Under the pieces are notes generated by a model. That model saw only the letters and a program-made list of their open reading frames with translations, made no database searches and had not been told where the DNA came from. The position numbers were made by a program, and so were the translations under genes. Positions 1 to 64,000 of a stretch of 64,000 nt of DNA are shown piece by piece. The DNA is from Diacronema lutheri (taxonomy: Eukaryota; Haptophyta; Pavlovophyceae; Pavlovales; Pavlovaceae): contig JAGTXO010000058.1 of assembly GCA_019448385.1 (NCBI GenBank), forward strand, positions 124,001-188,000, given 5' to 3'. Within the stretch, counting starts at the first letter, position 1; every line of letters starts with the position of its first letter.

Positions 1-3000
1 CGCGCGTCGCGTGCACGCCGAGCTCCACGCCGCGGTAGAAGGCGCGCGCGTTGGCCGCGCGCGCGTGCGCCGGCCGTCCGTCCGCGTTGCGCCTCGCGCG
101 CGCCTGCTTGCTCGTGCGCGCGAGGCCGTCGCGTGGCGGTGGCGGCAGCGTGGCGAGGAAGCGCGCGGCGGGCGGCGGCGCGCGCACGCCGCGCTGCCGC
201 CGTGCGATGGCCGCGAGCCGCCGGCCCGCCGCGCTGCCGCCCGCGCCGACGTGCTGCCGGCGGCCGAGCGCCGCCGGTGGCGGCGGCGGCGGCGGCGCGG
301 CGGCGGGCGGCGGCGCGACGGCGGGCGGCGGCGCGGCGGCGGGCGGCGGCGCGGCGGTGGGCGGCGGCGCGGCGGCGGGCGGCGGCGCGGCGGCGGGCGG
401 CAGCGGCGGCGGCGCGGCGGCGACGGCAGCACCAGTCGGCTTGTCCGCCCACGCACCCGAGACTCTGTCCCAGACCTTGCCCCATGGCGCGCGCCCACCG
501 CGGCCGCGCGAACTGCCCCGGCTCGAGCGCCTGGCCGCGCTTGGCGGCGGCGGCGGCGGCAGGGGGCGGGCGGCCGGCGCGCCAGTCGAAGACAGGTGCA
601 ACCGTGGCGGCAGGCGCCGAGTGCCGCGCGTCGGTCACAGAGCGCGTGGTGCGCGCGGCGACCGTGGCACGCCTGGCGGGCGGGCGGTGAGCAGCGCCCG
701 CCGGCGCGCCGGCGGGCGCGGCCGCCTCGAGCCCGGCGGAGGCGCCGCGCTTGCGCTTGCGCGTGCCGCCGCGCGTGCGCCTGCGCGCGCGCCCGCCGCG
801 CGCCCGTTCGGCCTGCGCGTCGCCAGCCGCGTCGCCGGCCGCGTCGCCGCGCCGCACGTAGACGACCGCGAACGCCTCCTCGCCGGTCCCGTCGACGCCG
901 CCGCGCGCGCGGCGCAGGACCGACCGCCACTGCAGCCGCCGCGCGCGGCCGGGCTCGCACGCAAACCAGCGCCCACCGCGCCTGACGACGGCCACAAAGT
1001 CGTCGTCGCGCCGCCCGCGCCGGCGCGTGCGCAGCAGCACGCACTGCACGTCGAGCCAGCCCTCGTGCCAGTCGGCCGTGCTGGGGGCGACGCGAATCGA
1101 CTGCGGGAGCTCGACGCCAAAGCCGGCGAGGCGCACGATGTGCGCGACGATGACGCTCGAAATGGCGGGGGCGCTCGACGGGTCGCCCGCTGCAGCGAGC
1201 ACCGCCCCGCCCCAGTGCTCACGCGTGACGCAATCCGCGTCCTCGACGTGCACGTGCGCCACGCTCGCGCCGAGCTGGTGCAGCAACGCGCAGATGTCGG
1301 CGTCGACCGTCCTCTCCTCCTCGGCCGCCTCGGCCGTGCCGCGGGCGGCGGCGTCGCCTGCCGGCTGCCCGAGGTACGCGATCGCCCGCTCGACGGCCGC
1401 GCGCTCCGCACGCGCTGCGATGTCGATCGCCGCATTGCCGACGGGCGCGCGCAGCGCCGCGATCGCGTCTTGCAACGCCGTCGCGTCGCCCGTCGCCGCC
1501 GCCGCCGTCACCGCCGCCGCGCTCGCGGTGCCGTGCGCGACGGCGTGCAGCGCGGCGGCGCGCGCGGCGGGGATGCGCCCGTCCAGCGCGAGCACGAGCG
1601 GCGGCCCGGCCGGCGTCTGCTGCCGCCGGTGCCGCCGGCTCGCAGCCGGGTGGTCGGCGCGCGCGCGCTCGAGCCGCGCGCGCCGCTCGACGACGCGCGC
1701 CCAGAAGGCCTGCACCCTCGGCTGCGCGAATGCAAGCCAGCCGGCGCCGCGCGTCACGACGTGCACGACGATCCGGTCCTCGTGCCTGAGGTACTGCACG
1801 TAGAGCGCTTTGCTCACGCCGAGGACGTGCATGCCGAGCTGCAGCTGATCGCGGTGCGGCTGCGGCGGCCCGTCCTCGTGCGCCGTGGCGCCCGCCTTGG
1901 TGAGCGTCTTCACCTCGACGAGGACCTGCTCGTTGTTTTCGGGGAGGATGGCGAGCCCGTCCGGCGAGAAGGCGAACGGCGCGCTCTTGTCGTGCGGGTC
2001 CGCACGCACCATCGGCAGGTTGCACACGACGGTGATGCCGTACGCGGCCGCCAGCTTGCGCAGCGCGACGGCCTCGCCGAGGATGCCCGCGGTCGTCGCC
2101 TTGGTCCGCACCTCGCGCCGCCGCCGGTGCACGTACTCGTCGGTGAGCGTCTCGTGCGCGACGCCGGCGTTGTCGTTCACGACGTCGCCAACCTTGCTGC
2201 CCGTGACCTCCTCCCATCGCTCGTCGTGCCAGCGCGGGCTGCGCTGCGCGGGCGCGCCCGCGCCGACGGCGTCGAGCACGCGGCGCAGCGCTGTGCCGTC
2301 GGGCGCAGCAGGCACGCGCGCGCGGTCCTGGGCCTCGCGAGCGTCGAGGACGCGGCCCGTAGTGGAATCTTGGGGTAGGTCGAGCTTGCTCGCCTCGCCG
2401 TAGCGGCTCTCCAGCTGGCGCGGTGCGTCGGCAGGGCCGCCGTCCGTGCGCGCACCCGACGCGCCCGCCAGTGCACGCGGCGCAGCGTCCGAGGCGCCCG
2501 CCGCGCCCGCACCGCCGCCAATCGCGCCAGCGCACGCGCGCGCCGCGACCTGCGGACGGCCAGCCGCAGGGACCTCGTCCGCTCGGCCGGCCGCTGCGTC
2601 GGCCGTCCGCTTGGCCACCTCGCGCACGTCTCCGAGCGCGAGCGTGGCTGGCGCCGTCGAGCTCCCGTGGTCTTTGTCCCAAAATTTGAGCAGCCCGCCA
2701 AGGAAGGGCGTGCCCGTCGGGCGGTCCTCGGGCACCTCCGCCAGGATCGCGTCGACGCGCAGCGCGGCCGCCACATCGCAAAACGCGCGCGCGGCGCGCG
2801 CCATCCGCTCGGCGCGCGCGCCGCCGTCGTCCGCCGCGCGGCGGATGGCGTGGCTCACGTGCGCGACGCGGAGCGAGACGACGGCGTGCGCCGGCGCGTC
2901 GGCGCCCGTGCCGAGCGTGTGCCGCCGGATGGCCAGCTGCCCATCGCCCATGCGCGGCGGCAGCGACGCGCACGCCGCGACGGTCGTCGTGCCGGCCGCG

Positions 3001-5945
3001 CTGTCGCACAGCCAGCTCGCCTCGCCGCCGCCCGCAAACTCAAAGGTCGCGAAGCCCTCGCGGCCGAAAAGCGCGACGAAGTGGTCGAGCACCGCCTTGT
3101 TGATCGCGCGCGCCGCCGGCCGCGTCGATGCGCCGCGGGCAGCGCCACCCGCCGCGCCGCGCGCATCGCTGCACGTCGCAGGGCAGGTGCAGCCGGACGC
3201 GCGCACGCCGTCCGACCGCGTCCGCGGCAGCTCGAGCTCGCGCACCTTGGGGCAGAACCAGAGCGGGTTGGACGCCTCGAGGCACAGCACGACGAGCCGC
3301 CCGTCCGTGCCGGCCAGCGCGCGCGCGTCGCGCAGCAGCTCGACGGCGAGCTCGGACGTCGCCGCGTGCACCGCCGGCTCGCCCGTCGCGCGGTCGGGCG
3401 GGAAGAGGCCGCCGCCGACGAGCGGGCTGGGGCAGCGGCCGAGCATCACGAGCAGCGGCGGCGGCGGCGTCTGCGGCGCCTGCTGCCCGACCGCAGCCGC
3501 CGTCAGCCCGGCCAGGTCGGAGCTCGTGCGGAGGGCCTTGAGCGCGACGCGCGAGCCGGTGCCCGCCTGCTCGGAAAACGTGGCGAGCATGGCGCACGTG
3601 CTCGCCCTCGCGCCGCACTGCCAGCTGACGCGCGCGAGGAGGCCTTCCAGCGTGTCGTTTTCGCGCGGCCGCGTGACCGCGTCGAGCGCCGCCGGGCCGA
3701 GCTGGAGGCTGCCGGGCGTGACGCACAGCACCGCCTCGTGGTAGGCGCGCAGCAGCTCCCTCGGCAGCTGCTCGGCGGGCGTCGCCGCCTGCCCGCCCAC
3801 CCACCGTGCACCGTGGCCGCCGTCGCCCGCGCCCGCGAGCCGCACCGCCGGCCCGCCCGTGATCGCCGAGGTCGGCGGCGTGCCGAGCGCGTCGACGAGC
3901 GCGCGCACGGGCGCGACACGCCTGCGCGCAGCGTCCGCGCCGACGGCGAGCGCGGCGATCTGAGCGCCCTCCCATGCGCGCTCCCTCGCGTCGTCCCGCG
4001 CGGCCGCCGGCGCGGCGCCCGGCCGCGCGCCGGGCGGCACCGCGCACGCCGCCGCGACGACCTCCGCGCGCGCGCCGGCGGCGTCGGGCGCGTGCAGCTG
4101 CGCGAGCGCGCCAAAGAGCGCGGCGGCCGAGCGGTAGCGGCCGTGCGCCGCGACGAGCGCGTAGAGCACGCGCAGCGCGGCCACGCCCGCCTGGTCGGGC
4201 GCGTCGTCAGCGATTTGCTCGACCTCCCACGTGCGCGTGGGCGGCGGGCTGCCGTCGGCCGGGTCCGGACGCAGCGCCCACGCGCGCTCGACGATCGCGT
4301 TGAACACGTCGCGCGCGGCGCCCTCGTCAAACTCGGCGGCGCCCGCCGCGTGCGCGCACCACCCGTGCACGCGCGACGTGGGCGCGTCCACGGCGCGCTG
4401 CACGACGAGCACCGCCGGCCGGTCGACGCAGCCGAGGCTCACCGCCGCGTGCTTGCCCTCGAGCAGCGCCGCCGCCGCAGCCTCGACCAAGGCGTCACCA
4501 GGCGCGTCGCCGACGACGACGGCACAGCCGTCGCCGTACTCGGCCTGCATCGCGGCGACGCACGACGCGACAAAGTCGCCGCCCGCGGCCGCCGCGTGTC
4601 GCGCCGCCAGCATCCGGCGCGCGATGGCAAGCCAGACGTACTCGGCCGGCGCGCGCGCGGCGCGCGCGCGAGGCGCGCCGGCCGCGCCGCGTGCGCCCGC
4701 GCGTGCGCCTCCAGCGGCCGCAACGGCCGAGGCGGCTGGAGCGGCGGTGAGCGTGCGCCGCGCGCGCTTCGCCGGCCGCGCGATGGGCGATGCACCCGCC
4801 ATCGCACCGCCCGCAGCAGCCGGTGCGGCCGCCACAGCGCCCGCCGCAACGCCACTCGTCACGACGCCCGTGGCGGGCGGCGCGGCGTCGGACGCGGCCG
4901 CCTCGACGGGCGTCGCGCAACTACCGCCAGCGGTCGCGGACGCGCCCGGCGACGCGTCGGCGAGGAGGTGGTGCAGCACGCCGCGCGCGAGCGCGACTCG
5001 CACGGCGAGCGTCAGCGCGCGCAGGCGGTCGTAAGGCGAGGCGTCGCGCTCGGCGTCGGCGGACGTGGCGGCAGCAGGCGGGGCGGCGGGCGGCACGGCG
5101 GCGGACTGGGCGGCCGCCGGCGCAACCTCGTCGGCCTTGGCCAGCCAGACGAGCCCGGCGACTGCGAGCACGACGCTGTACGCGCCGACATCGTCACCCG
5201 CAACGCGCGCCAGCCGGGCGTGGGCGTCGGCCTCGGACACGGCGACGTGGAAGAGCACGTCGTCGCGGGCAGCTTGCTCGGCAAACTGACGCAGCTGCTT
5301 GGCCATCGTCACGCCGGCGACGCACGCCTCGCCCGCCTCTGCCTCGACCTGCTCGTCCTGGCCGATGGCGGACGCGCCGGCCTCGGCGCCAGCGTCGAGT
5401 GTCCGGCGGCGCTCGAGGGCAAAGCCACGCACACAGACGCTCTGGAGGCCGCCGAGCGCGCCCGCCTTCTCGTGCAGCGCGCACGACAGCTCGACCACCG
5501 AGTCCACGCGCCTCGCGGCGGCGCCCCCCCGCTCGCCGCGCGTGGCCGCGCGCACGACGAATACCGTGAATTGCGCGCGCTTCGCCGCGCGCGCCGACGC
5601 GCACGCGTGCTTCAGGAGCCGGCAAAGCGCGGGCCTTTGCGCCGCTGCGCCCCGCGTGCACAGCAGCAGTTGGCCGCGCTCGTCGCCCAGCTCCTGCTCG
5701 ACGGCGGCCTCGAGCGCGTCGTCCGTCAAATCGCCGTGCTCCGTCGAGGCGAGCGCGCGCGCAGCCGCGAGCGCCAGCTCGCCTGCGCCCGCGCGCCGCC
5801 GGCGGCGCGCACCGGCGGGCGCGTGCGGCGCCGACGCGTGTGACGACGCCGCCGCGTCCGCGCGCGCACACGCGGCGCGCAACGCCTCACGCGCCGAGGC
5901 GGCCGCGCGCGCCCTGGGCGCGAGCTTCAAGAACGTGCGCGCGGC

Positions 5946-6018
<73 letters not shown>

Positions 6019-9000
6019 TCGCCCGCGTCGCCGGCCGGCGGCGGCGGTGGCGGCGGTGGCGGCGCGGCCACGGCGGCGGCAGCAGCGGCGGCGGCGGCGG
6101 TGGCGGCGGCGGCGGCGCCCAGCGCGGGCGGCGGCGGCGTGGCGGCGGCGGTGGCGGCGGCGGTGACGCCAGCGGCGGCCTTGGCGCCGCGCGTCTGCGG
6201 CGGCGTTTCGGCGCCATCGGGGCTGCCCCCGCCGCGCACCGCGCTCGTGACCGCGCAGACACCGCCCGGCGCACGATCGCTGGCCGCGCCGGTCAGCGCG
6301 ACGCGGAGGCGCTCGCCGACAGCGTACATGTCCGCCACGCTGAACGTGCGCGGCGCGGACGAGCAGCCCGCCGCGGCGAGCGCGTCGTTGAGCGCGCCCA
6401 CTATCGCGAGGCCGCACGTCGCGCCACGCTGCGCCGCCTCGTTGAGCAGCAGCGCGCGGCGCACGCGCGAAATGTCGAGACCCGCCGCGTGCAGCGTGGC
6501 AGTTATCGCCTTGGCGAGCATGAGCGCCTGCCTGCAGGGCGACGCGAGCGTGTCGACGAGCACCGCGTCGTAGCGATGCTCGCCCGCGCGCGCGACGCGC
6601 ACAAGGCGCAACGCGGTGAAATGGCCGGAGGCGAGCTGCGCGCCGTCGTCACCGCCCGCGCCGCCGCGCTCGTCCGACGGGCTCCACACGCCGATGACAG
6701 CCTGCGTTGTCGCCTCGCTGCGCAGGCGGTGCAGCAGCGCGGCGCGCTCGGCGTCGTCCTGAAACACCGCGGGTTGCGCGGCGAGCGGCACGTGGCAGAC
6801 ATGCCCGCCGCCGGCCTGCCCGTGCACGCGCAGCACGACCTCGCAGCACGCGTCGACGGTTGAGGCGAGCATGTCGCCGCTGGCGATGCGCTCCACCTCT
6901 GCCTGCGGGAGGCCGGCGCTCGCGGCGGCGGCGGCCAGCCGGCGCGCAGCCGCGTCGCCCGCCCACGCAAGCAGCGCCGAGTTGGCGGGTTGGAGGGGAA
7001 GCTCAAGGGCGGCTGGTTCGGTGGCGGTAGCCTCGTTGGCAACGGGCACGTTGGCGGTGCGCGCGTTGGCGGCGGGCGCGGCGGCGATGGCTGGTGGGGC
7101 GGAAGACGCGCCCGCGGCGGCAGGCGCGGACGCGGCAGCGGCAGCGGCTAGTGGGGCGGGGAAAACGCCGTCGGTGGCAGGCGCGGAGGCGAATGCAGGA
7201 GCAACTAGTGGGGCGGGAAAATCGGCGGCAGGCGCGAAGGCGGATGCAGCAGCGGCTAGTGCGGCGGGGAAAACACCGTCGGCGGCAGGCGCGAAGGCGG
7301 ATGCAGGAGCGCCCAGCGGGGCGCAGAAAACACCGTCGGCGGCAGGCGCGAAGGCGACAGCAGCAGCGGCCAGTGGAGCGGAGGCGCAGGGCCACGCGCG
7401 CGCCAGCCGTGCAAGCCCAAGCCGCGCGCGAGCGACGCACGCGCCGATGGCCGAGGCGGCGGCGCAGGCCACGACGTGGCCTGGCACCGGTGTGGCCAGC
7501 CGCTCGCGGGTGTGCACGTCGAGCCGCGCCCCACGCCAAGAGCGGCGGCGCGCTGAACGGAGGCGCGCGACCCCGATCGATCCGCCCGCGCACGCGCGCG
7601 CCGGCTCAGTGTGGCCAACGCGCGCCGCTATGCAAGGCGCGCGCGCGATAACGGCGGCTGTCGGCCGTGGCGTGCGCGTGGCGGCGCCGCGGCGACGGGC
7701 GCGGCACACGAGCCGCTCGGGCGCGCCGCCGCCGCGCGGCACGATGTCGAGCAGCACGGTCACGCCGCGCGCGCGCGCGACCGCCGTGCACGCGAGCCGC
7801 ACGGGCAGCGGCGGCCCGTCCGGGCGCGCGAGCGCCGCCACCTCGGCGTCGGTGAGGCTGTGCAGCTCGCGGCGCGCGCGCGCGAACGCGGCGATGTCCG
7901 CGCGCAGCTCCGCGTCCGTGCCGAGCGCGGCACGCGCGTGCACGGGGAGCGACGCGCGCAGCGCGTGGAGCACGCCGCCGCGCGCGCCGCGCGGCGCCGG
8001 CGCGCGCTCGCGCTCAGCGCGCGCGGCGCGCGTGAGCTCGCGCACCGCGCGCGCGAGATTGCGCCGCGCGGCCGCGACGGGAGGGCTAGGTGCGCGCGCG
8101 CGCCCGTTGTAGCGCGGCCGCGCCGAGTCGAGGGGCGGCGGACGCGGTGCGTACGCCGCGGCGCGGCCCGCGCGCCAAAAGGCCGGCGGCGGGCGCAGCT
8201 CCGTCGCGTCGACCGCGGCCGCGAGCGCGCCGAGCGCGGCGTCGCTGTCGCCCGCCGCGTCGGCCGCGTCGACGAGCACGAAGAGCGCGCCGAGCGCGCG
8301 CGACGCGGCCGCCTGCGCGGCGGTGGGGCGGGCGCAGGCAGCGACGCATGCGGCCGCCATGCCGCGCGCCGCGGCGAACGCCGGTGACGTGACGGCCGCG
8401 CCGATGGCAACGGCGGCGGCGGCGACGGTGGAGGCGGCAGCGCCGGCGATGGAGGTGGCAGCGGCGGCGGCGCTTGCCATCGCGCGGCGCGCGAGACGCG
8501 AGGCGCCACCGACCGCCGCCGCCGCAGCGCGCGCTGCGCGCGCGCCGGTGGCGCGCATCGTCGCCGCGCCAGGCGCCGCCGCGCCGACGCCGCCGGCGCC
8601 CGCGCCGTCGCCGCTCTCGGCCGTGCAGGGCTCCGATGGCGAACCCGGCGTGCGCTGGCGCGTGATGCGCGCGCCGAGGCGCGCGCTCCGCGCCGCGCGG
8701 CCGGCGACGTCGAGGAAGCGCCGTGCGCGCGCCGCGCGCAGGCCACGCGCGCGCGGCGGCGCACCGACAGGCGCCGAGCGCCGCGGCGCGCACGCCGGCG
8801 CGTCGCTGTCGGGTTGCGCAGCGCGCGCGCGGGAACTCGGCGCGGCGTGTGCGGGCGGCGGGCGCGCGCCCGCGCGGCGCAGAGGCGCGAGGCGCCGGCC
8901 GCAGACGAGGCGTGTGCGCAACCAGGACGGCGAGGGCCGCAGGGCGCCGTCGACGTCGCGCATCGGCGGGCCGCGAGCCCGCCGCGCAGCCGTGCGGCGC

Positions 9001-12000
9001 GCGCGAGGCGCTCGGCGGCGCGCGCGCCGCACGGCGCGCGCGGCGGCGCGCACGCCAGCGACGGCTGCGGCCACGCCGCGCGCCAACACGGCCGCGGCGT
9101 GCGCCATCGCACCGAGCACGGCGCGTGGCGCGCCGAGCAAGCGCAGCAAGCGCGACGCCGTCGCGCGCGCCGGCGCACCGTGTGCAGGGGCCTCGCCAGC
9201 GCCAGCACCGACGCCGCCATCGCCGCAGCCGCAGGTGGCGTCGCCGCCGCCGCAGGCGTCGCGACGGACGCCGCCGCCGCCGAAACAACCGCCGCACACG
9301 TCGCCGCCGACGTTGCCACCCCAGCCGCCGTTGCGTGCGCAGGTGGCTGCGGCGCGTGCGTGCGGGAGGCGTGCCGTGCGGCGCGCATCACACGGGCTGC
9401 GCGACGCGAGCGACGCCGCCGGGGTCCCCGCTGCGCCAGGCGCGCCGTGCGCGCCAGCCTCGCCGGCCTCGCCGGCGCGCGGTCGCGCGCTCGCCTCGAC
9501 GTGGCCGCCTCCGCCGCCATCGCCGCCGTCGAACCGGGCGGCGGAGGGCTGCCGCTCGAACCGCTCGTCGGCGTCGGCCGCCACCGCCGCCTCGCGCTCC
9601 GCCGCCGCGGCGGCCGCACGGCGCGCGTGGCGGAGCGCGCGGCCGCCGTCCGCTGCGCGGCGTGGCGGCGCGGGCGCGGGCTTCGGCGCGCGCGGCCCCT
9701 CGGCGCGCTCGCGGAGCACGGCGAGCGGCGTGCCCGTGGCGACGCTCGTGCAGACGCGCCGCAAGGCGGCGCTTACGCACGCGTGGACGACGCGCGCCGT
9801 CCGCTTGTCGGCGGCGCGCGCGGCGCGGCGCGCGGCCTTGGCGGCGGCCTTTTTGGCGCGCCTCTGCTCCGCCTGCTCCGACAGCGCGCGCGCCTGGCGC
9901 TCGGCTGCGAGCGCGTCCTCGGGCGAAACGGTCGGCCTCGGCGGCCGCGCGCGCGCGCTGCGACGCTGCGCGCTGCGGCGGTCGGACGGCGGCTGCCGCG
10001 GCGGCGAGGACGGCGAGCGCGAGCTCGGCGTGGGCGACCAATCGCCGCTGACGGTTGCGAGCGGCGCAAACGGGTTGTCGTCCCCGCGACCCGCGGCGTG
10101 CGACAGTGCACGCGGCGTCGGGCGCCGGCCGACCGCTGGCGGGCCCCACTCGGACGGCGGCTCCGAGGGCGAGCGCGCCGTCGGCGCCGCGCGTTGCGCG
10201 GCCGGCGGCGCCTCCCGGTCCAGCGCCGCCTGCTCTCTCGCCGCGGCCTGCTCGTCACCCTCCGGCACGCCACGCGGCGCGAGCACCGCGGTGGCGCAGC
10301 GCGTCGCGTTGAGCAACGCCGCCTCCATCTGCCGCACGCTGGCCTTGGCGCACGCCACACCCTGTCTCGCCCGGCGCAGCGCCTCGTGCGCGCGGCGCAC
10401 ATCCGCGTCGGCATCTTCGCGCATGCCAAAGTGCGCCTGTTGCAGCCGCAGGTCCGCAGGGCGCCCCTGCGCGCGAGGGGCACGGGCGCGGCGGCGCGCA
10501 GGTGACGGAGCTGGCGCGCCGTTCTGCGCTGCGCGCACGCCAATCGACGGGCGCGCGCGCGGCGGGGCGCGCGCGCGCGCGCGCGCGCGCGCTGCCTACC
10601 CAGCCGCCGGCCGGCTCGCGCGAGCGCGCCAGCTGCTCCGCCGCCTCGGCGTCGAGCACGCGCTGCTGCGCCTCCTCCTCGCCCAGTGCAGCGAGGTGCA
10701 GCCGGCGGGCTGCCTTGCGGCAGTTGCCCTCCGCCTTGCCCACGGCCTTGCGCGCCGCGTCGACGGGGTCGTCGTTGGCTCTGGCGCGCCTGCGCTTGCC
10801 CTTGTCGGCGGGCGGCGGCTTGGCGCGCTGCAGCGTGCCGAGCGCGTCGTCGGCTCCGCGCGCGGCCGCCCGCGGGCGGCGGGCCCCAAAAAGCGCACCG
10901 GTCGCCGTGCGCGCCGCGCAAGCAACGACCAGCGCTGACATGCCGGCGAAGACCGCACCGCCCAGCGCCACGGTTGCCACGATGCGCAGCGTCCCGTGCG
11001 CAAGCTGCGCTGCCTCCGCCGCTTTGGCGGCCTCGCGCGCGCGCGCATCGGCGGCTCTCATCTCGTGCAGCAGCCCGGCCGCGCCGCTCGCGCCGTCGCG
11101 GCCGCGCGCGAGCTCGCACAGCACCGCCGCCGCGCGCCGCGTGGGCTCGCGCGCGAGCAGCTGCGCGCCGCCGTCGGGGCGCAGCTTCTCAACGAACTCG
11201 ACAAACGTCGCGTCGCGCCAGAGGGACATGCGGAAGGCCCTGTGCACCGCCCCCTCGTGCTCGCGCATCCGCCGTGCCGCCCGCCTGCCGTCGCGCGCGT
11301 GCGCGTGCGCGGCCGCGTCGAATCCCGCGACGCCGCGCTGCGCGTCGCGCGCGGCCGACGACGGCGCCGCCGCGCTGCCCGCCAAGGGCGCCGCAGCGGC
11401 GACGCGCGCGTGCGGAGCGACGGGATCGCCGGCGGCCGGCGGCTCGGCGCGCTGCGGCGTGCCGTTTGCTCCGCGCGCGGCCGTCCCGGGGGAGATGGCC
11501 GCGATGGCGCCGCCAGCCGCGCCGCGCGCCAGCCACGCGCATAGGCTGCCGACGAGCTCGCCGAGACCCCCGACGGTCGCCGCGGCGGCGAGTGCGCCGG
11601 GCTTGCCGGCCGACAGCGGCTCGCGAGCGTCGTCGTCGCAGCCGCCGGCACCCGTCTTGGCGAGTGCGTCGCGCTCGCCCTCGACGCCCGCCACGACCGC
11701 CGCCCCTCCGTCGTCCGCCGCGCCGGCCGCGCGCGCGGCCGGGCGCAGAGGAGGCGTGCCGGTGCAGCCGTCGCCGCTCGTCTTCGCCGTTTCCTCCACT
11801 TTGGTCACTTCGTCGCCACCTGCGCCATCTCCGACGCCGGGGCCCTTGGTCACGCTTGCCGCCATGCGCGCCGTGCCCGCCGGCCAGCCCGCCGACTGCT
11901 CGAGCGCGGCGGCGAGCGGCGCGACGCGCGTCGACTCGGGCGCGCTCTCGTCATCGGGCTCGAGCGCGTTGTGCAGGCGCGCGAGCGCGCGCTCGACGGC

Positions 12001-14274
12001 CGCGGCGCCACTGCCGGGGGCGCGGCTCGCCGCGCGCACCGCGCGCCGCCAGGCCGGCGCGAACATGAGCGCCGGCTCGAGCGCCGCGAGCGCGCGCGCC
12101 TCGCGCGCGTCGCTCGCGCCGAGGCGCGGCGGCACGCGCGCGGCTCCGCGCGGCGCGGTGCCTCGGAAGCGTGGGCTCAGCGTGTAGGCGAGGTGCTGCG
12201 GCACGCCGCGCGCCTCCGCGCGCGCGCGTCCGTCCTCGACCTCGCGCCGCGCCTTCGCGATCGCCGGCGTGGCGCGCGCGAGCCAGTCGGCGTCGGCGGG
12301 CAGGTGGATCACGACGAGAATCGGCGCCCAGTCCAGCCGCGGGTTCTTGTGACGGTCGGGCACGACCCACACGAGCAGCACCGTGCCCTCCGCGCCGCAC
12401 GCCGCCTCGTAGATCCTGGGCTGCGAGCGCCAATCGGGCCTGACGCGCAGCGCCCGCGCGTGGTCGATGGCGGCGGCGCGGTCGCCATTGAAGTGAACCG
12501 TCGTCACCTCGCCGATGACGGACCGGCCGGACCGCCAGCAGAACACCGCGTCCGCCGACCCGCCGGCGATGGCCGCGAGCGATTCGGGCGCGGCGAGCCG
12601 CGGCAAGCCCTCGAAGGCGGCAAAGTCCTCGTGCGCATTGTACACGCCGCCCCAGCCGTCGTGCGCGTACGCGCGCGCGGCCGCTTGTACCGCGCGCGGC
12701 TGGTTCTCCACGCCCGACGTCATGTGCCATGTCGTCCCCGCGAAGCCGGGCTCGCCCAGCTCGGCCCGCACGACGGTACCGTACCCCGCGCCCTGCGTCG
12801 GGGCGGCGAGGTGGTGCATGCCCGCGCCGGTCACGCCCTCCGTGCGCTGCCGCGTGACGATCGTGCCCGTCGCGTGCGCGAAAAGCGTGTCGACCACGGC
12901 GGGCGCGCGCCCGCTGTTCGCCCGTAGCCGCGCCCTGCCCGCTTTTAGCTGCTCGGGGTCCTTGGCGTCGTACACGCGCGCGTCCGCGTCGCCTTCATCA
13001 GGCGCAGTGTAGACGCAGCGGCGTTCGAGCGGCGCCGAGCCACCGCCGTCCGCCGCCGCCGGCGAGGTTGGCGCCGCGCCCGCCGCCACCGCGCTCGTCG
13101 CCGCCGTGCCCGTCGCCACCGCCGCAGCCGCCGCGCCCGCGGGGTCGTCGTCCCCGTCCTCCGCGCCCTCCCCGTCGTCAGCGGTGGTGGCGTCGCCATC
13201 GTCCCCGTCGCCCTCGCCCCCGCCGAGGCTGCTGAATGGTCGGGGCCCCCACGCCGAGGCGGCGCGCCGCTGCGGCGCACGCGGCGGTGGCGCTCGCGAC
13301 GGCGGCCTTGGCGCCGCCGCGCCGCGCGGCCTGGCCGCCGTCGACAGCGCGCGGCCTGCAGCGCCCGTGAGCGCGTCGAGCGCGGCCGTGCGTGCGATGC
13401 GGTCGTCGGGCGCGCGCAGCGCCGCCTCGACGGCCTGCAGCAGCCCGTCGGGCGCGGATCCGCCGACACTGGCATCGCACGCCTCGGCGAGCCGCGCGGC
13501 CTCGGCGAGCCGCGCGGCCTCGCGGGTGAACGGGCCGAAGCGCCTGGCGCGGTCGCCGAGCAGAGCGCCGATGGCGGCGCGGAGCGTGCGCGCGCGGGTC
13601 TCCTCGTACGCGGCCGTCGTGAGGCGCGCGAGGCGCGCGTCCAAAGCCTTCTTGATGTCGACAAGGACACTCGCGCGGCGGCCGTAGAGCGTCGATGCGC
13701 TCGCCACGACCTCGGCCGCGACTGTTGCCGCGGCGAAGCAACACGCGGCCCCACTCTGCGGGGGCGCCTTGAAGGCATCGATGGGCGGCGCTGTTCTGCC
13801 GATGCGCTGCGCAAGCTTCTTGATGAGCACGCCGGCCGCCGTGGCGTACGCCGATTCGCCGTTGCCCAAGGTGCGCGAATCGGCGAGCAGGGCGAGCGCG
13901 GCGCCGGGCGGCGCGCCGCGCTGCGCGGGCGGCGCGAGGAGCAGGTACGCCGCCGTCCAGTGCACGAGGCCGCGGGACGCGCGGAGGCAGAGCGGTAGCA
14001 CGACCACGAGCACCTGCCCAAACCGGTCCGCATCCGCGCATGCTTTGCGCAGGTTGCGCAGCGCCACCTTGAGCGCATGCTGCGAGCACCCCGTGTCGCC
14101 CACCCTAACCCTGCTCGTGCCGAAATCCGCGTAACGCAGCAGGGCGATGAGGCAAGTGGATGGGACCACGTGGGGGTGGGTATCTCCCGGCGACAGAATG
14201 GTGCTGAGGGCCAGCGAGAAACTGTCCGAGCCGCCCCGCCCGCCGGGCAAAGCGTCCTTCACGGAGTCCTCCAT
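1..14274 (-). CDS. Giant multidomain protein with two Ulp1-like proteases and a YqaJ-type nuclease (runs off left edge)
   Basis: The gene starts with ATG at 14274. The first exon runs to 10600 (1,225 codons); a 133-bp GT-AG intron (10467-10599) containing a GC-dinucleotide run follows, and phase is kept into a second exon that stays open to the left edge, giving at least about 4,700 residues. Domains in order: (1) a C48/Ulp1-like signature with HW at 105-106, D132, Q173 and C178-C179; (2) a hydrophobic stretch, then a charged coiled coil spanning the intron; (3) Ala/Pro-rich low complexity; (4) a second C48-like signature, GHF with H2507 (6623), D2530 in LVDTL (6554), Q2571 and C2576 in ATCGLAIV (6416), followed by about 25 Ala codons; (5) a YqaJ-like PD-(D/E)XK nuclease with E4023, SPDGL (D4061), VEVK (E4076, K4078) and Q4099; (6) a late segment resembling the end of a ubiquitin-protease fold. 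The assignments come from motifs only. Codon third positions are strongly GC throughout. The coding frame in the last 0.5 kb at the left edge is uncertain. It could be a host gene or the core protein of a large mobile element. Confidence 0.75.
285..425 (-). repeat. GC-rich tandem repeat near the left edge
   Basis: Units of about 15-18 bp made of GGC and GCG triplets repeat roughly eight times. In different frames they give Arg/Ala or Pro/Ala repeats. They lie in the far C-terminal part of the giant gene, where the correct reading frame is unclear. Confidence 0.6.
5944..6019 (-). repeat. GCC trinucleotide run coding for polyalanine
   Basis: About 25 uninterrupted GCC codons on the minus strand, in frame with the giant protein, directly C-terminal to its second Ulp1-like domain. 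GCG/GCC-rich variants continue to about 6160. It probably acts as a linker and is a likely length polymorphism. Confidence 0.75.
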
Positions 14275-17254: not shown

Positions 17255-18678
17255 CGGCCGCCGGAGACGAGGACGCACTCACCGCTGTTGGCAATGCGCG
17301 CGTCACGGAGACAACTTGGCGGGCCTCGCACGCAGCTGGGCCGATCGCCGCCGTAGAGATGTCTGCAGCCGTCTCCGCGATGCCGATCGTCGCATCTGTT
17401 GGCACCGCTGCCATCTGCCGCACCCGCGGCCAGGCTGCCGGCAAGGTCGGCGCGTCGGGCTCCGAGCTCGGCCACGCAGGCGATGCGGCCGACGGCGGTG
17501 ACGCTGAGCCCAGCGCCGGGTCCAACGGCTCCACGTCGAGCCGGCTGTGAACGAGCATGCTCGCACCACTTGCCCACGCCAGCGCGTCGGACTCAGGCAC
17601 GTTGTAGATCTGCGCGGGCAACGCGCGTGCGTGCGGCAGGCGCGCGCGCGAGCTTTCAGGCCACGCGCGCGTGCCGCGCGGGAGGACGGGGCGGTCGCGG
17701 CTGCGCTCGACCGCCGGTCGCGGCACCGAGCGACCGTGCGCGCCGCCGCACGTTGTAGTCGTCGCACGGAAACCAAGCCTCGTTGCGGAGCACGATGGCG
17801 ACAAGGTGCCCGCTCATCGGCCCCTCGCCCACGTGCACCACGCCGGCGACGGGGAGGTGGTCGCGCCCGCCGAGCAGCAGCCGCGGCGCGCACACGAGCG
17901 CGCGGTTGTTCTTGCACTGCGAGCCATTGCCGCGCGTCGTGCGCGGCGCCTCGACAGCAATGCTGGCTGGCGTGAGCACGCCCGAGTGGCCCGCGTTCGT
18001 GTGGCGATCCCGCGGCGGCCCAGCGGCGCCCCCCAGAGCGTGTGCAAGCGCGCGCGCCGCATCGCCGCCGACGCTGACGAGTACGGCGATGCCCTCGCCG
18101 GCCTCTGAAGGCACGGCGATCTGCTCGAGCACTGGCCCGACGCGTGTGTCGGCTTCAAAGGCCGCAGCGAGCCCGGGCACTCGGCCGAGCAGCAACCGGA
18201 AGAACTCAGCGGCATCCTGCGGCGTCCTTCGCGCGCCACGGCCCGAGATGACGTCGATGACGGACACAAGACACAGCCGTGTCGGCGCCCTGGTGTCCTC
18301 GATCAGCGTGCCAAAGTCCCGAAAACGCGCCCTCTCGACGCTGTTGGCACGGCGCGAAGCGGAGCGAAGCATCGCACGGAGCATGTTCAGGGCGAAGAGC
18401 GATTGCATAAGGACGGTCGTGTAGCACGCGCTGCCCTCGTTTTTCGCGCCTGCGCCGCGCCGCGCAGCGCCGGGTGTGCGGGGTGCGCACGCACGGTTTG
18501 CGGCGGGATGGAGGGAGGCTGGCTGGGCGCGCGCCGAGCCCGGCAAGCCGTGCAGGCGCTCACCACGCGGCACGCCGGGCACTCTCACCGGCCACATCGG
18601 GCCGTCAAACGCGTCTTCCACAGGCTGCCGACCGACGACGTAAAACTTGCTCAAGGCGCCGCGCCGTGCACGCGCCAT
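17002..18678 (-). CDS. Ubiquitin carboxyl-terminal hydrolase (USP, peptidase C19)
   Basis: Predicted to remove ubiquitin from protein substrates. Four exons are proposed: 18678-18564, 18449-17752, 17609-17283 and 17109-17002, giving 415 residues; each junction has GT-AG ends and keeps phase. The Cys box is NEGSACYTTVLMQSLF, matching the USP pattern GNxCYxNSxLQ with the catalytic Cys kept; TPQDAAEFFRLLL matches the QDAxEF helix; the His box is GPMSGHLVAIV, with the following Trp and CDDYN supplying the acidic residue; ASMLVHSRL matches the closing AYxLxYxR strand. At 415 residues it is a catalytic domain with little else; the C-terminal tail is unique. The last intron holds a 31-bp poly-C run on the coding strand. 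The start at 18678 is the first ATG before the conserved exon, but extra upstream exons are possible. It sits between the helicase and the giant protease gene on the same strand. Confidence 0.8.
17219..17249. repeat. Poly-G tract inside the last intron of the ubiquitin-protease gene
   Basis: About 31 G on the plus strand, which is C on the coding strand, placed just after a GTGAGTG splice donor. A GT dinucleotide run precedes it. Confidence 0.85.
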
Positions 18679-19577
18679 GCGCGCGCTGTTGCGGGCTGCG
18701 CAGCAGGGACGACGGGGGAATTGGCGAGCGAGGGTTGGGCGCAGATCAGCGTGGTGGCGCGGCAAGACGAGCGCGCGCCGGGCGCCTGGCGCGGAGGCGC
18801 CCCGCGCGAGGACGCGAGCCGCTTCTCGCACCGGACGGGCGCCCACGCGCAAGCCGGCTTTCGAGGGCTGGTGGATGGTGGCAGATGCCGAAACGGACAC
18901 ATGGAATGATGCGTCGGCGGCGCGAGCGCGGGACGATCTTGCCCGGGCAATTTTGCGCACGCTGCCAGCGCGCGTATGCGTGCGCATGCAGCGGGCGGCG
19001 CGCACGTTGCGCGTGACGGGGCGCCGAGCGGCACACCGGCGGGGACGCGCTCGCCGCTGCCGTGGCATCGTACGCTGCCTGCGTGCTGGCCCGCACGCAC
19101 GTTGCCGGCGCGAGGGGACGGCGAGTGCGCCTCGGCCGAACAGGCGCGAACGTTACGCCCGAGCGCGTGGCCGGGCCCCGCCGACTGCACGCAGCGCCGG
19201 CCCAGGCGCGCATCCGCCCGACGCGGATTTGGACGACGCATCGACCGGCACGCCGAGCGTCTGCGCCCGCCTCGCGGCCGGTCGCGCCGGCCCCTCTTCG
19301 GCCCGAGGCCGCACGTCCGCCGCGCGCCGCTTTGGCGCGCGGCGCGGCGCTCCCGGAACGCGCATGGCACACGCGCGGTGCGCGGGCACGCCCGCAACGC
19401 GCCATTCCAGCGCGAGCAGTTCGGCAAGCTTGCAGCGCGCGAGCAGCCGGGCATGTGCCGCGGAAACACAGTTCGCTGTGTGCGCCGGCCGCGACGACAC
19501 GGCGTAGCGGCGCGAGGCTGGCCGCCGGGGCCACGGGCGTACTGCCGTGGCGCGACGCCATGGTATGAGCATTAAAT
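18679..19577. other. Gap between ubiquitin protease and helicase genes
   Basis: I see no convincing gene in these 0.9 kb. They could hold a 5' exon or promoter of the ubiquitin protease and the 3' untranslated part of the helicase. A G-rich run (19583-19612) lies at the right edge, at the end of the helicase reading frame. Confidence 0.4.
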
Positions 19578-22500
19578 TCATCGGGGGGTGGGGTGGGGGG
19601 GGGGGGGGGGGGGCGCGTTGTGCGCGCTCGGCGCGCGAGTGGTGCCAGTGGCGGGCGAGCCTCGTCGCCCACGGAGCCCGCCCCCGGCTCGGCGGCGCGC
19701 CGCCTGCTCGCCGGATCGCGCACCGCCGTCGCCGCCGCTGCGCGCTTGCCCAGCTTGCCGGCAGGCGGCAGGCGGCGGCGACGGCGGCGGCGGCGGCTGC
19801 GGCGCGAGCGCGACGCCGGGCGGCGGCAGCGCCGACGGCACGCGCGTGGCGGCGACCCACGCGGCGGCGGGCGGCGCGCCGGCTTGAGGCCCCTGCACGC
19901 CGGCCGCATTGGCGCCGCCCTGCGCGCCCGCGAAGGGCGCGCAGGTACGCGGGCCGGTCGCGCGGCGCGCGGTGCTGGCGAGCATCCGCCGGCTGCGCGT
20001 CGGCGCGAGCGGCGCGGCGGGCGTCGCGCCGGCGGGTGCTGGCCAGCACCGCGCGCCGGCGGCGCGCCCGCCGCCAGCGCGCCGCCCGCCGCCGGCGCCG
20101 CGCGCGCCGTCCGCGCCGCGCCCGCCGCGCTCGCCGCCACCGCGCGCCGCCGCCGCGCATTCGCGCGCGGCGGCGACGGCGGCCGCGGCGAGCGCCGCCG
20201 CCGCCGCCTCGCCACCGCTGACCGCGCGGAGCACCTCTTTGAAGACGACGCTGCGCGTCACGAGGTCCGCGCCGAGCGCAAAGCGGACGCGCGACGTGTG
20301 CCCGACGCGCGAAGCGGCCACGTGGAGCTGGCCGTGCGTGAAGCACGGCTCGGCGAGCCACACGCCCGCGCACCCGAGCGCTTGCCCCTGCGCCTCGTTA
20401 CGCCGGCCGCACCGGGGAACTGGCGGCGCATCCGCACAAGCGCGAACGTGCCGTCGTCGGGCGAGTGGTGGTCGACACGCGCGACGAGCACGGTGCTGTC
20501 GCGCCCGGCGGCCGCGCCGGGGCGTGCGCACTCGAGCAGCCGGCCGCCGGCGCGCACGCCGCGCACGATCAGCCGCGTGCCGCCGCACAGCCCCTCGCCG
20601 GGCGAGAGGTTGCGCGGCAGCATCACCACCATCCCGGGCTTCAGGTCGAGGACGCGGTGCGGCATCTGCGCGTGCTCGAGCGAGTCGAGGAATTCGACCG
20701 ACGCCCGCGCAATCTGCTTGCCCGCCCCGTCGTCGCGCCAGCTCGTCCGCCGACGCGCACCTCGCCGCCGCGCCCGGGAAGCGGCCGATCACCAGCCAGT
20801 TGATCCGCGCCACGTCCGTCTGCTTGGCGCAGAGCACCGCGCGGTCGCACAGCGAGCCGTCGTCGGTCCAACACGTCGCGCCGTGGACAAAGTCGTCACG
20901 AGCTCCGTCGGGTAGGCCGAGCCCACGCGGATGGGGACGCCGCCGACGGCCTCGGGCAGCTGCACGGGATCGAGCGGGAATGCGCCGGGCATGGCCCCGG
21001 CCGCCGGCACCGCCGCGGGAACGGCGCCGTCGCCGGGGCTGCGCAGCAGCTCCGCCCACTCGCCCGCGCCGAGCGCGTCGCCCGTGTCGCGCGCCGCGCT
21101 CGAGGCGCGAACGTTCTCGACCAAGGCGTGCTGCCGATCGTGCTGCCACGGCGCCGAGTACTTGAGGCAGGAGCGCACGATCTGCGCGCGCGAGCCGCGC
21201 CGCACCACCGGCAAGCACTGGCGAAAGTCGCCGGCGAGCAGCAGCGTCTCGCCGCCGAAGCGCTCGTCGACGCCCGTCACGTCGCGCAAACACCGATCAG
21301 GCGAGTCGAGGTGGCACCGCGTCTGCATCGGCGCCTCGTCCCACACGACCAGCCGCCGCGGCGGCCAGGGAGCGCCCGCGCTCGGAGCGCGGCACGCCAT
21401 TGAACGGCTTGCCCGTCGGAGTCGGCACCGCCGGGCACCTTGAAGGTCAAGTGGAAGGTGCGGCCGTCGGGCAGCAGCGTGGCGGCGACGCCCGAGGACG
21501 CGCCCACGACGACCGCGTGCCCATCCGCGCGCACGGCGGCGATAATGGCGCGCTCGACGAACGTCTTGCCCGTTCCGCCCGGCGCGTCGCAAAGATGCAG
21601 CCGGTTGCCCACGCCGCGCAGCGCCGATTTGACGACCGCGCCGTGGAGCGCGCACTGCTGGCCGCCCTCGGCCATCGCCGCGCGCGCCGCCGCCGCGCTC
21701 GCAGCCCGCTCGGCGCGATGGTAGCCCTGCGCGCGCGCGAGCTCGCGCCCGCCCGGCCCGGCCGGCGCGCGCGCCGTGCGCAGACCGGCCACCGCCGCGA
21801 GCGCCGCCGCGCGCTCGCGCTCGTCGGGCACGTACAGCCCCGTGGAGTCGAACGTGTCGGCCCAGGCGGGCACGCCGTACGAGGCGAAGGCGTCCGAGCC
21901 GGGCTGCGGCCGCTGCTCGGCGCGCTTCAGGAGCATGACCCCGCACACGTTCCACTTGGTGCCAAACATCGAGCCCGTGAGCCCCGTGTAGACGCGGTCG
22001 AGCTGCGTGGCGATGGCGCAGACGTCCTCGTGCCGGATCTCGTCGACCGGTTCGCGCCGCGCGTCGACGAGCGGCACGACGCGCTCGGAGCCCGCCCACG
22101 TGAACGTGCGCGTCGACATGTTCAGCCGCGTGTGCGCGAGCGTGTCGTCCTCGTACTTGGGCTTGACGGCGGGCGAGAGCTTGCCGCGCACCTCCTCCTT
22201 CGAGAGGCCGCGCGTGTTGAGCAGCTCCTTCTGGCGCGCGTGCACCGTCTCGACGCGCTGATCGTCGATGGCGCGCAGGGCGCCAAAGTAGGCGTCCATC
22301 TGCGCGAGCGGCGCGCCTTCAATCGGCAGCTCCTTGTCGGTCACGCCGGCCGTGTACGCCGCCTTGTCGACGTCCGTCGGCCCGTACATGGTGCCAAAGT
22401 TGCCGTCGCCCGTGAGCTCGGGCCAGTCGACGACGCAGGGCGGCGAGACGAAGGCGAGCGCGCGGCGCGACGGCCCGTAGCTCAGCTTGTCGACCGTGCG

Positions 22501-22590
22501 CGCCTGCTCGCTCGGCTTGACCGGCCGCGTGCTCACGATCTCGCAGTTGACGAGCGCCGCGTCGAAGGCGCGCAGGTCGATGGCGGCCAT
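19578..22590 (-). CDS. PIF1/Helitron-type superfamily 1 DNA helicase, reading frame interrupted
   Basis: Encodes an ATP-dependent 5'-3' DNA helicase of the PIF1 kind found in Helitrons, DNA viruses and host genomes. Motifs in order: Walker A in DAPGGTGKTF near 21575; ASSGVAATLLPDGRT near 21500; motif II VVWDEAPM near 21335; GGETLLLAGDFRQCLPVV near 21220; INWLVIGRFPG near 20790; LKPGMVVMLPRNL near 20620; and motif VI AQGQALGCAG with HGQLHVAASRV near 20380. The start at 22590 opens a roughly 270-residue N-terminal region I do not recognise; no HUH replication initiator was seen, so a full Helitron protein is not supported. The tail is Ala/Pro-rich. The conserved motifs lie in more than one frame, with about three frame changes that could be introns, sequence errors or decay. 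It is the first gene of the minus-strand block that ends in the giant protease/nuclease gene. Confidence 0.75.
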
Positions 22591-25400: not shown

Positions 25401-26157
25401 AAGACCTCCTACGCGAACTCACGTGCTCGCCACCTGCAACGCCTCGAGTTTACGCACGCGTTCGAGTCTGTGCAGGCCGAGGTCGCTTAGCCAAAGCGCG
25501 CCAAGGTTCCGGCCACCGGCGCATCCAGCCGCTGGCTGCGCAACACGGCGGTGCGCAACACCCGCAGCTCGGCCAACGGCAAGTAGCGCGCCGGCGCAGC
25601 GCACGGTATGCCGCGGCGAGCTCAGTCGCGAAGAGTGTCCGACTGGCCGCGCCCTCCACGGGGTGCACGCGCACTCGGCGCGGTCCGGTCAGTCAGGGGG
25701 CCTCAGCTTGCGCGATGCCAGTTGCGAGCCCCCCCGGAATCCGCCATTCTATTCTACTAGGCGTAAATCACCCAAGCCCTTCCGGTCGCCCGCATTCCGG
25801 GGTCGGACCCTCCGTCGGCCCGGCTCGGGCCCTCCGTCCGCCGCGCCCGCTCGACCCCGAATTCTACTCAAAATCGGCCGGTCAGGAGGGTGTCTCGGTC
25901 CTAGGCTCGTCATAAGCCTCGCCCCGACCCCTCGAGCGCTCATTGGCTGGCTTTTAACCCTTGATTGTACGACCCGGGTCGTACTCTCAGCCTTACACTG
26001 GCCGGACCAGCCCGGACCGCGCCTTATATAGGTTTGTTTGAAAAAAAATCCAAGCGCGTTCGCTCACCGAGGCTGCATCACGACACGTCAACAACGTCAT
26101 CGCGTGCGGTCTGCGCGCGCCCGGCGCGTGCGCGTCTGAACGGCCTCCGCCTCACTC
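25401..26157. other. Gap with an AT-richer patch and a short perfect palindrome
   Basis: No gene is supported. The stretch 25720-26060 is clearly less GC-rich than its surroundings. It contains a perfect 18-bp palindrome, GTACGACCCGGGTCGTAC (25967-25984), a TATATAGG at about 26024, and an A8 run at 26042. It may be a repeat remnant or the shared 3' region of the flanking genes. Confidence 0.4.
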
Positions 26158-55096: not shown

Positions 55097-55144
55097 CCGT
55101 GTCGGTCGGGTCCGGTCAAGGGTCGAGCGGCGGACGGTGCAGCA
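55097..55144. promoter_or_regulatory. 48-bp divergent gap between the ATPase and F-box/ankyrin genes
   Basis: An extremely short shared upstream region. Transcription start sites may lie inside the opposite gene. Inferred from spacing alone. Confidence 0.35.
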
Positions 55145-55801
55145 ATGGCCGCGATGGCCCGGTCGCGCGGCGGGCGGCCGACGTCGCCCTTCTCGCGGCT
55201 GCCTGCCGAGGTCATGCGGCACATCGGCGACCTCGTCGGCCCGGCGGACGCGCTCTGTTGGCGCGCGACGTGCCGCGCCTTCCGAGACGCGCGGCGCGCG
55301 CCGCCGCGCACGCCGCGCTCGGCAATGCTGCGCTCGGCCGCGCTCGCCGCGTGGGCGTGGGAGCAGCGCGGCTTCCGCACGCGCGCGTTCCCGCCGGCCG
55401 AGCAGCGCCTCTTCTGCAAGCTCGCCGCGCGCACGGGCAGCGTCGGCGCGCTCGCCTGGCTGCGTGAGCGCCGCTGCGAGTGGGACCGCGACACGTGCTC
55501 GCAGGCCGCCGCGGGCGGGCACCTCGCCGTGCTCCAGTGGGCGCGCGAGCACGGCTGCGCGTGGGACGGCGTCGTGTGCGAGGCGGCGGCGGGCGGCGGG
55601 CATCTCGCGGTGCTGCAGTGGGCGCGCGCGCACGGCTGCGCGTGGGGGCAGGGCACGTGCCTCACCGCCGCCGCGTACGGGCGCCTCGCCGTCCTGCAGT
55701 GGGCCGTTTCGCACGGCTGCCCGTGGGAACGTTCCGAGTGCGTGTCGATGGCGGCTTTCCGGTGCAACGGCGAGATGGCGGCGTGGCTGCGTCACGCATG
55801 A
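55145..55801 (+). CDS. F-box protein with ankyrin-type repeats
   Basis: 218 residues in one exon. An F-box lies at about 16-45 (FSRLPAEVMRHIGDLVGPAD, then CRAFRDA). Four repeats follow: VGALAWLRERRCEWDRDTC, GHLAVLQWAREHGCAWD, GHLAVLQWARAHGCAWG and GRLAVLQWAVSHGCPWE. This GHLxVLQWAxxHGCxW form is the divergent ankyrin repeat common in protists, algae and large DNA viruses. F-box proteins bring targets to SCF ubiquitin ligases; the target is unknown. With its divergent neighbour it forms a tight pair. The second ATG (residue 4) is an alternative start. Confidence 0.8.
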   Translation: MAAMARSRGGRPTSPFSRLPAEVMRHIGDLVGPADALCWRATCRAFRDARRAPPRTPRSAMLRSAALAAWAWEQRGFRTRAFPPAEQRLFCKLAARTGSVGALAWLRERRCEWDRDTCSQAAAGGHLAVLQWAREHGCAWDGVVCEAAAGGGHLAVLQWARAHGCAWGQGTCLTAAAYGRLAVLQWAVSHGCPWERSECVSMAAFRCNGEMAAWLRHA

Positions 55802-55882
55802 GCGTGGACAGCCACAGGCAAAATCGGTCACTGGCACAGTGGCACTGGCACTGGTGACTCAAAAGTCACCAGCCTGCGCAGC

Positions 55883-63812: not shown

Positions 63813-64000
63813 CGTTTTGGCGCGCCTTTTGTGGGCGGATTCGGCCCAGTCACGCGTTTTGCTGACCGCGGATCGGATTTCGGGGTCTAGCCGCCGGGGG
63901 CGCCCGGGGCCCCGGGCAGATCCGATCGGACCTGGCGCCATCGGGGGCGCCGTCGGGGGCGCCCGAGTGCCGCGCGGGCCGTGCACGCGTGAACCGCGCG
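63813..64000. other. Upstream region of the kringle gene
   Basis: 188 bp to the right edge; nothing beyond short G/C inverted motifs (CGGGGCCCCGG near 63912). Probably promoter sequence. Confidence 0.35.

Follow-up and report, generated by a model that had tools for sequence, protein, structure and literature searches.

A probable giant DNA transposon of the haptophyte Diacronema lutheri carrying a TnpB/Fanzor, a RecE/YqaJ-type nuclease and a PIF1 helicase

A 64,000-nucleotide stretch of the Diacronema lutheri genome (contig JAGTXO010000058.1, here C49, positions 124001-188000; hereafter the window) holds part of a multiplied 31-kb repeat. We read this repeat as a giant DNA transposon that bears a Fanzor and has a new domain architecture, its moving enzyme being still unrecognised, and place the probability of this reading at roughly 0.6. 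Besides a giant gene with a chromodomain, a TnpB/Fanzor and an exonuclease of RecE/YqaJ type, it has coding capacity for a PIF1 helicase and a peptidase of the USP type. The element is apparently undescribed. A preliminary description, made from the window alone, had seen here one giant protein joining two Ulp1-like proteases to a YqaJ-type nuclease.

Extent, copy number and ends of the element

The window is GC-rich and belongs to a genome of 43.49 Mb in 103 contigs; the published assembly has 43.503 Mb, 103 contigs and 73.25% GC (PMC8379373). Pairwise alignment showed the giant gene to be part of a 31,068-bp repeat at C49:118965-150032 (31,066 bp once one chance-matching base at each end is subtracted). 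The element reads on the minus strand and occupies positions 1-26032 of the window, with about 5 kb more to the left of window base 1. The C49 copy and a copy on another contig, C71, are 99.6% identical over 21.7 kb and 99.2% over a further 9.4 kb; the similarity ends abruptly and the flanks are unrelated.

Copies were counted in two genome searches, one with the nuclease segment and one with the first of two H-D-Q-C residue sets described below, each listing 150 places. Combined, they put the element at 192 or more places on 88 of the 103 contigs. Identity among the listed copies was 98-100% for the nuclease segment and 93-100% for the first-motif segment, and at 108 of the 150 listed first-motif places the nuclease lay 11.8-13.2 kb downstream on the same strand. 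Four genome searches (two segments, two ends) gave 188-254 first-look candidates, suggesting copies beyond the 192. If most copies are full length, the element would make up an estimated 6 Mb, or about 14% of the genome. The genome paper reports 22.9% repeats, and such a family is not named in the accessible part of its text (PMC8379373). The amplification burst looks recent.

Many contigs begin at or near the 3' end of the element, and for 16 of the nuclease places on the minus strand the distance to the contig start is no more than 7.4 kb; at four first-motif places, the contigs begin near its 5' end. Since contigs start near both ends and the assembly read N50 of 23.5 kb (PMC8379373) is shorter than the element, we read these starts as assembly forks. 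Owing to such forks, some of the 192 or more places could represent one genomic copy assembled twice. A telomeric element was considered and rejected on the same two grounds. C49 itself terminates in GGGTGA repeats, apparently the real telomere.

The ends of the element are sharp and shared. The 5' end, CTATATA-N-GGCGCG (window 26017-26031, minus strand), was common to all 14 of the 5' junctions read, with differing flanks, while the 3' end was CTATACG in 15 of 16 junctions and CTATACT in the remaining one. Some 30-65 nt in from either terminus lies an 18-nt palindromic sequence, perfect near the 5' end (GTACGACCCGGGTCGTAC, window 25967-25984) and nearly so at about 30 nt from the 3' terminus (GGGGCACGATCGCGCCCC, L002:4995-5012, which falls outside the window). 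Among the 11 copies whose two flanks were read, none showed a target-site duplication of 4 nt or more; among mismatched flank pairs used as controls, 4 of 110 showed a direct repeat of that length. Terminal inverted repeats typical of DDE elements were not found at the ends.

From 40 + 40 listed end places (251 and 254 at first look), 15 end pairs could be formed. Eight span 31.0-31.1 kb; the other seven span 29.4, 26.5, 26.3, 26.2, 21.6, 21.6 and 12.7 kb and are read as internally deleted copies. Certain short sizes recur (two near 21.58 kb, three at 26.2-26.5 kb), which suggests that the deleted derivatives have themselves moved.

The 5' junctions read revealed no single clean target motif upstream, and some lie within or beside TATATA-containing sequence. 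At least three of them (L095, C4b and C3) fall inside or beside TTAGTATATA, where a short dispersed repeat terminates; a fourth (C8) lies where a different one terminates. The short dispersed repeat is present at 40 or more places (L091-L095, near base 1541); it ends in TTAGTATATA, and in L092 it faces a second repeat end as TTAGTATATACTAA.

The copy number and the sharp shared ends in unrelated flanks support one suggestion of the preliminary description, that the region is the polyprotein-like core of an undescribed mobile element, with the single polyprotein resting on predicted introns. The copy number contradicts its other suggestion, a domesticated DNA-processing or SUMO-related factor.

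The giant gene and its domains

The giant gene begins with an ATG-initiated minus-strand open reading frame (ORF) at 14274, and a second ORF, in a different frame, extends from 10538 past the left edge of the window. Exon 1 (10600-14274, minus strand) is open for 1,225 aa, with a third-position GC of about 0.9 in frame as measured on the C71 copy. It is followed by a predicted intron of 133 bp (10467-10599; GT-AG, phase 0, with a GC dinucleotide tract), placed from sequence and frame, and by exon 2 (1-10466), which continues left of the window and reaches 4,414 aa in the C71 copy. The two ORFs and the intron at about 10.5 kb of the preliminary description are thus reproduced, as are, on the joined translation, all 13 of its residues (H105, D132, Q173, C178; H2507, D2530, Q2571, C2576; E4023, D4061, E4076, K4078, Q4099). 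It had also looked to the neighbouring DNA for the C terminus; the gene does extend to the left, where it adds a chromodomain and a Fanzor that lay beyond the view of that description.

The C71 copy is intact, with exons of 1,225, 4,414 and 575 codons (stop codon counted in the third) and phase-0 GT-AG introns of 133 and 130 bp, giving a predicted product of 6,213 aa. We infer that the three exons would be spliced to encode one polyprotein of this length. In the C71 copy, third-position GC tracks the frames of the giant gene for some 18 kb, though weakly at 15.0-18.3 kb of the element. The region of the second predicted intron is the most variable between copies (13 substitutions in 250 bp) and has a 2-bp length change that leaves the flanking frames intact, as expected of an intron.

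The nuclease-bearing frame is uninterrupted for 4,470 aa or more in 88 of the 150 listed copies, and in seven of them one frame of at least 5,200 aa runs through the nuclease. A third copy was compared over 19.5 kb (98.3% identity): none of its exon substitutions creates a stop, and all exon length changes are multiples of 3 save two, which lie 39 bp apart and sum to a multiple of 3. The copies differ too little for selection testing, and the apparently recent burst gives no reading of selection on individual domains. No homologue of the giant region was found among 2,313 scored candidates, scoring being confined to those sharing most words.

The nuclease (window 1668-2258, minus strand) matched PHROG 434 with an E value of 5.9e-17 over residues 4-192 of 197, bearing out the YqaJ-type nuclease of the preliminary description, and more weakly TIGR03033 (E 2.4e-5, 24.5 bits, below the curated cut-off of 68) and Pfam YqaJ (E 2.4e-4, 21.8 bits, cut-off 22). 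When the whole genome was searched with the Pfam profile at E<=0.001, a single copy, that on C71, scored, above the cut-off. The PD-(D/E)XK residues occur in order (E4023, D4061, E4076-x-K4078, Q4099), and tblastn returned 27 phage records (best E 5e-6, 27.7% identity), most of them annotated there as tail or virion proteins. Independent profiles therefore confirm, beyond chance, a predicted nuclease of RecE/YqaJ type, the Pfam profile being weak by itself. By eye, a possible additional PD-(D/E)XK-like stretch, DAVF...GEVT, can be seen in exon 1 (window 13026-12220, about residues 417-685); it has no profile support.

Further along the predicted product, left of the window, a chromodomain is found at residue 5204 (PF00385; 53.6 bits, E 2e-14, cut-off 25.1 on the C71 translation, and 46.4 bits on the C71 locus itself). 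The last 600 residues or so, at the 3' end of the gene and likewise left of the window, are a TnpB/Fanzor. The window's own copy matched TNB PF07282 (E 1.7e-6, 28.5 bits, cut-off 26.3), and there was a weak match to NF040570 (E 0.023). Under the rule D-x(125-275)-[TS][TS] plus RD (PMC3627910), the RuvC D-E-D residues of the predicted C71 product stand in order, with D5814, E5996, TS5999-6000 and RD6055-6056. An alternative glutamate is also present, as E-PYTSMH-C, in agreement with the ExxxxxxC rule of PMC10711439. When the Fanzor exon was compared with another Fanzor family of the genome, all three RuvC motifs were in register (pairwise E 8e-7). The Fanzor frame of the window's copy is 555 aa long, as against 1,015 aa in many listed copies. 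The only homologue of the exon, among candidates sharing most words, was P0003 in ENA, 100% identical.

The TNB family was matched at 148 of the 150 scored genome places. Scores reached 39.5 bits or more at 21 of these 148, as against 31.3 for most copies of the element; we take these 21 as other Fanzor families, one of which was read. That second, better-scoring family, at L105:4637-9679 on the minus strand, lies in an open frame of 1,681 aa and shows both a canonical DPG and a CxxC finger. With about 20 further better-scoring places, the genome looks Fanzor-rich. A diverged fragment of the Fanzor 3' region (86% DNA identity) runs from window position 63980 to about C49:190406 (L106); it reads DQN in RuvC-I, and no parts of the giant gene were seen in the 6 kb of this locus that were read.

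The two H-D-Q-C sets are less certain. The first (H105, D132, Q173, C178; window 13738-13962) and the second (H2507, D2530, Q2571, C2576; 6411-6623), both on the minus strand, are candidate Ulp1-like sites by motif only. The residues occur in the same order, with D-Q distances of 41 and Q-C distances of 5 at both; in yeast Ulp1 the Q-C distance is one residue longer. In block-shuffled versions a loose pattern is met about once by chance, and 271 of 1,000 shuffles reach two; the exact spacing reaches two in 5 of 1,000 and, with the hydrophobic context, in none of 1,000, both of these patterns having been written after the sites were seen. The residues and spacing proposed in the preliminary description hold, whereas their assignment to Ulp1 stands unconfirmed. 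Neither segment matched C48 in a Pfam scan at E<=5, and a whole-genome search with PF02902 (C48) at E<=1 gave nine matches (from eight first-look candidates), all over the cut-off and none in the element. Searches of PDB sequences with the segments yielded no protease, and hhalign detected no resemblance between the two. A single-sequence AlphaFold model of the second site had a mean pLDDT of 42, too low for its fold to be used. That the sets are proteases is doubtful, with odds somewhat short of even.

Helicase, peptidase and the search for a moving enzyme

Upstream of the giant gene, the element carries a PIF1 helicase gene at 20298-22590 (minus strand), whose open frame changes several times through introns or frame breaks. 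Its motifs are Walker A (21562-21591), WDEAPM (21326-21349), GDFRQ (21206-21241), 2B (about 20609-20638) and motif VI (about 20298-20342). The window ORF matched PF05970 (E 3.6e-14), and pieces of the C71 translation matched PF05970 (E 1e-24) and PF21530 Pif1_2B (E 4.1e-14). Fused to its N terminus is a module of about 250 aa that belongs to no Pfam family. The module shares 54% identity with P0005, which is encoded on a different ENA contig, and so appears to be conserved and to occur elsewhere; among candidates sharing most words, the window's own protein and P0005 were the homologues of the ORF. The module contains no H-x-H, a PDB profile search returned weak, unrelated matches only, and an AlphaFold model made with one relative was unusable (pLDDT 34). 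A role in single-strand binding would be a guess.

The USP-type ubiquitin hydrolase-like ORF (17656-19068, minus strand) matched PF00443 UCH (E 3.6e-8, 33.8 bits, cut-off 23.9). It shows a Cys box, NEGSACY (18397-18441), a His-box-like stretch, GVVHVGEGPMSGHLVA, and WFPCDDYNV (17749-17775).

At E cut-offs of 0.5-1, Pfam scans covered 24 ORFs of the window copy together with three stretches taken from C71. These scans were the sole means of looking for a reverse transcriptase, a capsid and a DDE transposase, and none was recognised; nor was a Rep/HUH domain, and six frames inspected by eye offered no HUH context. Helitron_like_N (Rep) had one match in the whole genome, at C63:35738-36019 on the plus strand (E 8.3e-23), and none in the element. 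A search for the transposase of KDZ (Kyakuja-Dileera-Zisupton) elements found no match in this genome, nor in any control genome. Rfam gave no matches in the window and the three loci tried.

Outside the element, tandem arrays (a 75-bp unit repeated 5.1 times at 99% and a 22-bp unit repeated 12 times at 100%) lie at window 27228-27888, about 1.2 kb from its 5' end. At 55462-55728, 81-bp repeats resemble ankyrin-type protein repeats; the overlapping plus-strand ORF (53580-56144) has no Pfam match at E<=0.01. A 1,177-aa minus-strand ORF at 60465-63998 has two kringle matches (PF00051, E 1.6e-23).

Nature of the element, and its relation to known systems

A giant Fanzor-bearing DNA transposon has several observations to answer. 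Foremost, no transposase was recognised in the ORFs scanned, so that autonomy and mechanism are unproven. The giant-gene introns are predicted from sequence and frame. The nuclease-bearing frame is open for less than 3,000 aa in 24 of the 150 listed copies, and in the window's own copy the exon 2 frame is broken 513 bp left of the window, near the 3' end of the gene; in the PIF1 region, C49 and C71 differ in length and by one would-be stop. The third-copy comparison yielded 57 synonymous and 152 non-synonymous substitutions, which is near-neutral, and chance would have produced only 2-4 stops there. For the Fanzor exon and the older relative at the window edge, dN/dS was 0.61. RuvC-I reads DPN rather than the DPG of Fanzors, and the zinc finger has its second pair, CPAC, with the first CxxC pair incomplete. 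CTATA in both ends could be end sequence or a fixed target, leaving room for a fixed-sequence duplication or a recombination core. A clean empty site was looked for and none was found, and RNA folding of the 3' end was unremarkable (z from -1.35 to +0.48 over five lengths).

Under one alternative, the element would be a non-autonomous giant DNA transposon that holds only cargo genes and depends on a transposase supplied in trans from another locus. The Pfam scans of the 24 window-copy ORFs and three C71 stretches agree with that, both-end pairs of shorter span exist, and giant families with non-transposase genes only are described in Ectocarpus (PMC12477816). Yet a giant exon open for at least 4,470 aa in 88 of 150 listed copies would be surprising in dead cargo, with the caveat that the copies are young, and the inverted repeats and target-site duplication of a DDE element were not found; we consider such an origin unlikely while giving it serious weight. 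It is also rather unlikely that we are dealing with a rolling-circle element akin to Helitron or Helitron2, in which the PIF1-like gene would be the helicase half of RepHel, the Fanzor, USP and giant gene captured cargo, and its own or another Rep the mobilising enzyme. The PIF1-family helicase, the failure to find a target-site duplication and the palindromes near both ends all recall Helitrons, in which Fanzor1 is known (PMC3627910). Against this stand the absence of a Rep domain from the element, the sole match in the genome being on C63, the lack of HUH context in six frames by eye and of H-x-H in the PIF1-fused module, and ends of CTATATA.../...CTATACG instead of TC...CTRR.

A single-strand 'peel and paste' element like IS200/605, with Fanzor in the role of TnpB, would explain a TnpB homologue at the 3' end, subterminal palindromes without duplication or clear inverted repeats, and the 5' junctions in or beside TATATA-containing sequence. 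It is quite improbable, however, for no Y1/HUH TnpA was recognised, no single clean target motif precedes the 5' end, and a 31-kb single-strand intermediate would be large. Finally, the size, the helicase, YqaJ and the candidate Ulp1-like proteases are all features met in eukaryotic viruses, and a Polinton-like virus or virophage relative resident in the genome would account for the protease and nuclease genes. Capsid, packaging ATPase and DNA polymerase were not recognised in the tested ORFs, and four scans of viral contigs, which detect close relatives only, found none; a viral origin is highly improbable.

For the giant Fanzor-bearing DNA transposon that we favour, a mechanism can be sketched. 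An enzyme not yet recognised, which may reside in the giant protein or in the PIF1-fused module, would move the element as DNA, probably via a replicative or single-strand step aided by the helicase. Guided by an RNA reading from the 3' end of the element into the flank, Fanzor may cut allelic or vacated target sites; YqaJ would resect the cut ends, and PIF1 would drive repair synthesis through the element, thereby preserving and multiplying its copies. The chromodomain might bring the complex to chromatin, and USP, together with the Ulp1-like domains if these are real, could act in polyprotein processing or strip ubiquitin or SUMO marks. A 2023 paper proposes that single-strand DNA transposons could be helped to spread by Fanzor cuts made at the sister chromosome (PMC10432273), a proposal that fits the mechanism sketched here. 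A bolder version, which we hold decidedly unlikely, would make the element the founding member of a new kind of transposon that dispenses with a classical transposase and relies on Fanzor cutting, YqaJ resection and PIF1 copying, with nuclease, chromatin-targeting domain and guide-dependent cutter in one self-contained polyprotein.

Fanzor-bearing transposons and algal KDZ elements of about 30 kb are known; no match of the element to either was seen in transposase, ends or protein architecture. It shares with Fanzor1-bearing transposons (PMC3627910, 2013; PMC10711439, 2023) a TnpB-family nuclease within a mobile element, the order D...TSxxC...CxxC...RD and the alternative glutamate. It differs in that Fanzor is the predicted C terminus of a 6,213-aa protein, in its DPN and incomplete finger, and in lacking a recognised transposase. 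KDZ elements are likewise algal, about 30 kb long and endowed with accessory genes, and some giant families described in the same paper are without transposase genes (PMC12477816); here no KDZ transposase was recognised, the control genomes also being without a match, and neither target-site duplication nor inverted repeats were found. The estimated share of about 14% of the genome, if most copies are full length, far exceeds the 1.8% given for KDZ in Ectocarpus (PMC12477816). The nuclease resembles phage RecE/lambda-exonuclease (YqaJ) enzymes over the whole domain profile and in its catalytic residues, but is embedded in a giant eukaryotic transposon protein. The phage nucleases sit in a two-gene recombination operon. 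Searches of the open-licence literature for a Diacronema Fanzor, for Fanzor with Ulp1 and for a YqaJ transposon with Ulp1 found no description of the element, and a review of giant transposons (PMC6431247) makes no mention of Ulp1, Fanzor, PIF1, YqaJ or chromodomain.

Our results suggest that a good part of the D. lutheri repeats, and many of the breaks in its assembly, may stem from this one element. Fanzors, RNA-guided nucleases of eukaryotes, have potential for genome editing, and what they contribute to the transposons bearing them is unsettled. The occurrence of a Fanzor beside a resecting-type exonuclease and a chromodomain, with a PIF1 helicase in the same multiplied element, makes the idea of cut-and-copy multiplication testable in a culturable aquaculture alga.

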